44,042 nt of DNA from Bacteroidales bacterium (lineage in GTDB: Bacteria; Bacteroidota; Bacteroidia; Bacteroidales; WRLA01). Positions 37,567-40,809 of this stretch are shown in pieces (position 1 is the first letter of the stretch; every line of letters starts with the position of its first letter). Where the stretch lies: NCBI GenBank assembly GCA_031254805.1, contig JAIRTP010000034.1:1-44042 (forward strand). Reading direction: 5' to 3'. A model generated the notes under the pieces. That model was not told the origin of the DNA and did not search any database. It worked only from the letters and a program-made list of their open reading frames with translations. A program made the position numbers and the translations under genes.

Positions 37567-38685
37567 CTATGTGTTTTTTTCTATAAATAATTTGAAAAAC
37601 GGATCCGTAATAAAATATTCGCTATTCGTTTTTTCCACTATTCCTTCCAAAATCAATCCTGATATTGCTCGCTGTATTGTTGCGGCTCCGGATAAGTTGT
37701 TTGTTCTAATGTAAGCTGTCGAAAATATATTTTCCCCATTTTTTATTAATGCTTGCAACAATTGCTTTTTGCTTCTCGACTGTTTATCAAAAAGTTCAAT
37801 ATAATAATCGCTTTTCAATTCGATAAGCAGATTTATACATTTATCAATAATCTCTTTGGTGACGGTTTTGCTCGTATTTATCATATACTGCCATATTTCC
37901 GAAGATAGCAACTGAATGTAATGGGGAATATTAGAGGTTACCGAAATAATATATAAAGCCTCCTCATCATTAATAACGATGTTTGATTCTGCAAATTTTC
38001 TTCGCAAATATTCCATAGTATCTACTTTGGGAAGCCCGATTATGGTCATTTGAAAAGCGGCATTATAAAAAGCCTTTTTTTTACTATTAAACAATTCTTT
38101 GAGAATATGAGTCTTACTTCCCAAAAAAAGATAATTGGTCTTTTCTTGCTGCTGAATTTTACTCCTTAATAACGCTTCAAAATTAATTTTTTCTAACTTT
38201 TCAACATCTTGGAATTCATCTAAAAAAACAAGAACTCTTTTCCGGAATCCTGCAATTTTTTCCGGCAAATCCAATAATTGCGATACCGTAGTTTCATCAA
38301 TTTTTCCTCCCATAAAATCAATTGAGAATTCCGGTTTTCCATCATGCCCGAAAGTCAAGACAGGCCTGATATTTTTGATCAATGAAGCAAATGTCTGTAC
38401 AAATTTCTGTAAATTAGCTTGTTTTTTTGCTAATGCTTTTGAATAGAGCCGCACAAAAGATTCCAGCGAAAATACGGGCATAAAATCAAAATACACGCAA
38501 ATAAATCCTTTTTTCTCCAACTCTTCCATTGCCTTAAATACCAAAGATGTTTTTCCAAAGCGACGCGGAGCATATAATACTATATTATTCCCTCCGGATA
38601 AAACCCTCACAATTCGCTTGCATTCCTCTTTTCTATCGTAAAAATTGTCGCCTTTTACTATTGTACCGTAATTGAATGGATTCAT
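37567..38685 (-). CDS. AAA ATPase of the archaeal-type ATPase_2 family
   Basis: The 372-residue product starts MNPFNYGTIVKGDNFYDRKE, the usual family opening. It has Walker A Ala-Pro-Arg-Arg-Phe-Gly-Lys-Thr (39-46), Walker B VLVFLDEFQDV (151-161) and a sensor segment TNYLFLGSKTHILKELF. A STAND-like lid (ISVTSNIPHYIQLLSSEIWQ) and a C-terminal winged helix (AYIRTNNLSGAATIQRAISG ... YFITDPFFKLFIEK) follow. Such genes occur in many dispersed copies in Bacteroidetes and Archaea, and their function is not established. This copy sits between two amino-sugar genes, in the opposite direction to nagB. Its promoter (TATCTTTG, minus, 38714-38721) is flanked on both sides by copies of the heptamer GCATAAT. 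Confidence 0.9.
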   Translation of the reverse strand: MNPFNYGTIVKGDNFYDRKEECKRIVRVLSGGNNIVLYAPRRFGKTSLVFKAMEELEKKGFICVYFDFMPVFSLESFVRLYSKALAKKQANLQKFVQTFASLIKNIRPVLTFGHDGKPEFSIDFMGGKIDETTVSQLLDLPEKIAGFRKRVLVFLDEFQDVEKLEKINFEALLRSKIQQQEKTNYLFLGSKTHILKELFNSKKKAFYNAAFQMTIIGLPKVDTMEYLRRKFAESNIVINDEEALYIISVTSNIPHYIQLLSSEIWQYMINTSKTVTKEIIDKCINLLIELKSDYYIELFDKQSRSKKQLLQALIKNGENIFSTAYIRTNNLSGAATIQRAISGLILEGIVEKTNSEYFITDPFFKLFIEKNT

Positions 38686-38691
38686 ATTATT

Positions 38692-38777
38692 GCATAATTT
38701 TTGAATTTGTCTGCAAAGATAACTAATTATTTCAAATTATGCTTTTTTGTATTATGCAAAAAGGCATAATTTGAAAT
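38692..38777. repeat. inverted-repeat array around the AAA ATPase promoter
   Basis: The perfect 14-base arms ATTTCAAATTATGC (38729-38742) and GCATAATTTGAAAT (38764-38777) enclose a centre that itself pairs almost completely (TTTTTG with CAAAAA), so the 49 bases can fold into one long hairpin. The heptamer GCATAAT or its complement occurs four times: 38692-38698, 38736-38742, 38751-38757 and 38764-38770. The -7 element of the ATPase gene lies between the first and second copies. This suggests an operator array or the footprint of a mobile element. Confidence 0.8.
38714..38721 (-). promoter_or_regulatory. -7 element of AAA ATPase promoter
   Basis: TATCTTTG on the minus strand matches TAnnTTTG exactly and lies 29 bases upstream of the ATG at 38685. 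The long inverted repeat covers the position of the -33 element. Confidence 0.55.
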
Positions 38778-40768: not shown

Positions 40769-40809
40769 AACAGCGTCCGCTTGAAAATAAATATCAAGCG
40801 GACGCTGTT
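40769..40809. terminator. long hairpin between convergent nagB-like and yfcC-like genes
   Basis: The perfect 16-base arms AACAGCGTCCGCTTGA (40769-40784) and TCAAGCGGACGCTGTT (40794-40809) flank a nine-base AT loop. The right arm ends one base before the stop codon of the convergent transporter gene. The stem is very stable and probably stops transcription in both directions, though the T-tract is short. Confidence 0.85.

Follow-up and report, generated by a model that had tools for sequence, protein, structure and literature searches.

The ATPase gene and its promoter

The window, the entire 44,042-nucleotide stretch analysed (contig JAIRTP010000034.1 of a Bacteroidales bacterium), carries an ATPase_2-family gene that shares its upstream intergenic region with the divergent gene nagB (Table 1). 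TAnnTTTG is the −7 consensus of Bacteroidota promoters, and a box of this type precedes the ATPase gene. Read along the minus strand, the promoter consists of ATTTCAAATTATGC, CTTTTT, GCATAATAC, AAAAAA and GCATAATTTGAAAT, followed by AATTAGT, the −7 box TATCTTTG and an ATTATGC heptamer in the 5′ UTR.

The 49-bp near-perfect inverted repeat claimed in a preliminary description of this locus was present, with outer arms of 14 perfectly paired bp, and its arms span the expected position of the −33 element. It was the top-ranked inverted repeat in a scan of the window and folded as single-stranded DNA with −18 kcal/mol, compared with −4.3 kcal/mol in shuffled sequences (z = −7.2; none of 200 shuffles equalled it). 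No second copy of the hairpin was found in the 2.2-Mb genome. The four GCATAAT/ATTATGC heptamers reported around the −7 box were likewise recovered, three upstream and one downstream of it. The heptamer was not enriched across the window (9 observed, 11.8 expected). Simulation of 100 sequences of 44 kb with the AT-rich composition of this region, however, never gave four heptamers within 86 bp; the maximum was three, reached once. Elsewhere in the window, a 16-bp perfect inverted repeat lies directly behind the nagB stop codon (40769–40809) and is likely the nagB terminator.

Table 1. Features of the ATPase gene and its promoter (window coordinates)
Feature	Position	Strand	Basis or remark
ATPase_2-family gene, 372 aa, AAA+ ATPase with predicted C-terminal winged helix	37567..38685	-	Pfam, AlphaFold2 model, fold search
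Predicted winged-helix domain, residues 304-360	37606..37776	-	DSSP: H304-315, H323-328, H334-346, E350-353, E356-359
Predicted recognition helix, residues 334-346	37648..37686	-	DSSP of model
GCATAAT half-site, presumed 5′ UTR	38692..38698	+	Heptamer search
-7 promoter box TATCTTTG, Bacteroidota TAnnTTTG type	38714..38721	-	Consensus from general knowledge
Hairpin/repeat array over the -33 region	38729..38777	.	Inverted-repeat scan, folding, homologous arrays in L049-L059
Hairpin arms	38729..38752, 38754..38777		24 nt each, 92% complementary
Outer hairpin arms ATTTCAAATTATGC/GCATAATTTGAAAT	within 38729..38777		
Three half-sites inside the hairpin	38736..38742, 38751..38757, 38764..38770	-, -, +	Start-to-start spacing 15 and 13 bp
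Perfect dyad site ATTATGC-N6-GCATAAT	38751..38770	.	Sole perfect one in the 2.2-Mb genome

Domain structure and fold of the ATPase

The protein matched PF01637 (ATPase_2) with 39.6 bits, above the curated cut-off of 33.2; 97 of 99 homologues matched this family at an E-value of 0.01 or better. The P-loop (Walker A) was intact, with R41, G44 and K45 invariant in the 99 sequences. AlphaFold2, run with 98 homologues, predicted with confidence (pLDDT 95) an AAA+ core with a winged helix at the C terminus, in agreement with the winged helix that had been proposed for ATPase_2 proteins, and seven homologues gave weak matches to the winged-helix family MarR_2. The nearest solved folds were the archaeal ATPases PAB2304 (2qen, Z 23.9) and SSO1545 (2fna, Z 23.8), which have the same overall fold at 15–18% identity; SSO1545 was also detectable by sequence (E 7e-9). 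Archaeal Orc proteins followed, among them one structure bound to origin DNA, and TnsC also scored high. The Orc1/Cdc6-like arrangement of an AAA+ core with a C-terminal winged helix was matched over 315–324 residues (1w5t, Z 18.5; 2qby, Z 17.6). We know of no DNA target for SSO1545 or PAB2304.

Homologues with an E-value of 1e-20 or better were present in 116 of the 295 Bacteroidales-type genomes searched; to our knowledge, no function is known for these common ATPases. The idea that they occur in many copies per genome did not hold for the genome under study, which has one clear copy; a congener has five.

Repeat arrays at homologous ATPase genes

A search for GCATAAT arrays at other ATPase_2 genes had been proposed as a check, with their absence as one refuting outcome; such arrays were found in other Bacteroidia. 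Ten full-length homologues (L049–L057 and L059; 62–70% identical), from separate genomes and mostly separate loci, all had promoter repeats. Nine of them carried clear GCATAAT/GCATTAT arrays directly upstream of a TAnnTTTG-like box, mostly with a 15-bp step (for example GATTATGCAAAAATGCATTATGCATTTTTGCATAATGCATTTTTGCATAATC in L053), and the tenth, L054, had a diverged array only. A truncated homologue (L068) likewise had a GCATAAT/GCATTAT array, and more distant homologues had 14- or 15-bp arrays of their own. Seen against these homologues, the window hairpin belongs to the array type of the 62–70% identical genes, with three units. The most fitting reading is a short series of half-sites phased at 15 bp, which takes the shape of a hairpin because the units are dyad-related.

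For a wider comparison, 102 promoters of flanking genes served as the reference for homologue promoters from an order-level search and from a scan of genome contigs (21 loci). Start codons of homologues were set by alignment, and repeats were scored as z over dinucleotide shuffles, with z > 3 taken as significant. The median z was 5.7 in 128 homologue promoters (129 in the first run of the scoring) and 0.35 in the flanking-gene promoters (Mann–Whitney p 5e-19), and z > 3 was reached by 65% and 12%, respectively; the sample is biased towards the best matches, and the counts refer to one order and the named contigs. About one third of the homologues lacked a significant array, including the 51–57% identical L061 and L062. 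DUF4143 genes, originally chosen as a negative control, proved positive (see below), and the multi-copy AAA-ATPase_like family PF09820 was used as the working negative control instead. Its promoters had a median z of 0.5, with 4% above 3, and no winged helix was among the Pfam matches of the N-terminal piece of the PF09820 protein, the part that was scanned.

The best direct period among the 128 homologue promoters was 15 bp in 49 and 14 bp in 21. When only these two periods were admitted, 98 genes yielded a repeat unit, of 15 bp in 66 and of 14 bp in 32, and the units formed distinct groups, such as GTATTATACCAAATG, AGTAATAACTTTATT, TTACAAACATTCTTG, ACGAAAATTATCGCA and AAACATTTTGTTTT. Among genes for which both unit and box were available, about 62–74% had the array over positions −45 to −15 relative to the −7 box; in 19 of 77 genes with a box, it spanned the box or lay downstream of it. 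A subgroup with GTATTATACC-type units (L135, L144, L030, L046 and L116) departs from the layout of most family members: its arrays are placed across or behind the −7 box, in the 5′ UTR. In genome G048, a pair of GCATAAT arrays some 130 bp from each other (C680:592–626 and 724–758) precedes the gene of L029, an ATPase of a distant subfamily that shares only 29% identity with the window protein yet has the same heptamer.

Homologues were also found among plasmids (20 records) and phages (2 records). One of them, L183 on the Vibrio plasmid NZ_CP072682.1, is preceded (upstream of 1186) by a 14-bp repeat that resembles CTAAATACTAAACT and is present in three copies, so the array habit is not confined to Bacteroidota.

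Correspondence between repeat units and proteins

Repeat units agreed in 81% of the gene pairs whose proteins were more than 70% identical and in 2% of those below 25%. Across 49 phylogenetically independent pairs, unit identity correlated with the identity of the AAA core (rho 0.60). None of 34 pairs of paralogues within one genome had a common unit, compared with 4.5% of between-genome pairs. These comparisons firmly indicate that protein and array co-diverge.

The array was also specific at the level of whole genomes, which were searched by sequence pattern. In the genome under study, the perfect dyad ATWATGC-N6-GCATWAT occurred at the ATPase promoter only; five sites elsewhere had one mismatch, a number close to the three of the reversed-pattern control. 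Among the matches listed for relatives, perfect sites were at one place each in G297, G298, G299, G302 and G278, and G296, G048 and G123 had one perfect site each on another contig.

Where in the protein the co-divergence is located was addressed with a partial Mantel analysis controlling for whole-protein similarity. Helix 334–346, the predicted recognition helix, and segment 312–327 were among the top windows, and the value for the recognition helix was reached in none of 300 permutations. In pairs with 45–70% protein identity, the recognition helices were 61% identical where the unit was common and 42% where it was not, and residues 1–300 were 57% and 52% identical, respectively. The excess covariation of the recognition helix disappeared on the independent pairs (partial 0.09, p 0.28), and we therefore do not count it as proof. 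A concentration of the co-divergence in the winged helix is no more than suggested by these data.

Gene neighbourhood

Across 25 homologue loci, no neighbour family recurred consistently; the exceptions were scattered distant matches and one pair of near-identical loci. nagB was absent from both congeners, the flanks of about 1.5 kb around nagB contained nagK in none of 29 relatives of the order, and in G123 the ATPase gene is about 200 kb from nagB on one contig. Repeats at both ends of the gene, as in a transposon, were not observed: the 300 nt downstream contained no heptamer in 12 of 13 genes and a single one in the other. Gene and array thus recur as a unit in unrelated neighbourhoods, and the appearance of the array is not that of an insertion end.

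Comparison with known systems

Iteron-type plasmid Rep proteins and DnaA are winged-helix or AAA+ proteins that bind repeated sites and also autoregulate. Iterons tend to be longer and belong to replication origins; unlike in these systems, no replicon function is indicated for the window array. The non-initiator Orc1/Cdc6 paralogue Orc1-2 of Sulfolobus gives a footprint at a motif within the promoter of its own gene, and its output is governed by ATP binding and hydrolysis (PMC9738581). The window protein resembles it as an AAA+ ATPase with a predicted C-terminal winged helix, but comes from a Bacteroidota host and is related at the level of the fold only. Moreover, Orc1-2 recognizes one short motif (DDRE) common to its regulon, whereas here each gene has a private 14- or 15-bp repeat array and no regulon was seen. 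The mycobacterial regulator IniR is a promoter-binding transcription factor with an SSO1545-like ATPase domain; it differs from the window ATPase in having a MalT-like domain and an SdiA-like DNA-binding domain, and controls iniBAC (PMC5760070). Among open-licence PMC papers, none was found that describes repeats at PF01637, COG1672 or DUF4143 genes.

Proposed autoregulation and alternative explanations

We propose, with a probability of about 0.68, that the ATPase binds the array at its own promoter via the C-terminal winged helix and thereby regulates its own expression, probably by repression. The earlier suggestion of autoregulation, with the array as the binding site of the ATPase itself, is supported by the recurrence of own-type arrays at homologue promoters; direct binding is what we infer. 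Specific sites recur at the gene's own promoter, as expected of an autoregulator, and their sequence co-diverges with the protein. As no neighbouring gene is conserved, there is no other obvious cognate binder, and Sulfolobus Orc1-2 provides a precedent. Against the proposal count the roughly one third of homologues without a significant array, the genes whose array follows the −7 box and the loss of the recognition-helix signal on independent pairs. The hairpin would then be a cluster of putative binding half-sites for the adjoining ATPase, an ORC/Cdc6-like AAA+ protein that may occupy the 15-bp-phased GCATAAT half-sites as a dimer or small oligomer, probably cooperatively. With half-sites over the −33 region and on both sides of the −7 box, the bound ATPase would most likely block RNA polymerase, so that expression settles at a low level set by the protein itself. 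Both binding and repression may be tuned by the nucleotide state and perhaps by a further signal. Gene and array would travel together, with the repeat sequence co-diverging with the protein, so that paralogues could coexist in one cell without cross-regulation.

Auto-activation would use the same protein and the same sites: the array would stand in for a weak −33 element, with RNA polymerase recruited by the bound ATPase in a positive feedback. The array does lie at the expected −33 position; Orc1-2 is the global regulator of the DNA-damage response whose own promoter is among those induced (PMC9738581), and IniR, with its SSO1545-like domain, is an activator (PMC5760070). Arrays that span or follow the −7 box nevertheless fit a roadblock better, and since the array overlaps the −33 region and at times extends to or beyond the box, we favour repression and regard auto-activation as unlikely. 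The nearness of the fold to archaeal ATPases and then to ORC, the high score of TnsC and the resemblance of phased arrays to initiator or iteron arrays would suit a loading or nucleation platform with an origin-, partition- or targeting-like role, autoregulation being a side effect. This is rather improbable in our estimation, given that the position of the array is tied to the promoter, that no partner gene accompanies it and that the genome has no second perfect site.

The remaining explanations do not involve regulation by the ATPase. A regulator of the host other than the ATPase could read the array, which lies in the intergenic region common to nagB, or the strand, which folds well, could act as an RNA hairpin or terminator. 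The RNA version was rejected, as the array lies upstream of the −7 box here and in most homologues and would not be transcribed from it. A different regulator is hard to reconcile with an array that stays with the ATPase where nagB is no neighbour, and with units that differ among paralogues of one genome; we consider this pair of explanations very unlikely. The array had also been suggested to mark where such genes insert, and it could be such a mark or the end of a mobile element carrying the ATPase. Unconserved neighbourhoods, the distance from nagB in G123 and plasmid-borne homologues would fit. The suggestion was dropped as highly improbable, because the array is found 5′ of the gene only, its sequence tracks the protein rather than the site, and the perfect dyad is at no other place in the genome.

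DUF4143 genes and a possible wider class

If each ATPase reads its own array, the DNA target is known beforehand for dozens of proteins, ready for binding assays. A specificity code of the winged helix might then be derived, together with a first handle on the role of the family, and orthogonal ATPase–array pairs could act as independent transcriptional switches in Bacteroides. We would put at even odds a broader proposal: that solitary multi-copy AAA+/winged-helix genes, both ATPase_2 (14/15-bp arrays) and DUF4143 (arrays of about 32 bp), make up a large class in which every unit is self-contained and consists of an ATPase and a private promoter array that this ATPase alone reads, and that co-evolution of protein and repeats keeps paralogues orthogonal.

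Among the DUF4143 promoters, 57% exceeded a z of 3, and the preferred period was 32 bp. The proteins are laid out as AAA_14, a helix-turn-helix with a wing at about residues 195–264 (in the model of L210) and the rest of DUF4143. Gene-specific promoter palindromes or direct repeats were seen at DUF4143 genes of the same order (L189–L218; for example L200, L205, L210, L211 and L214).
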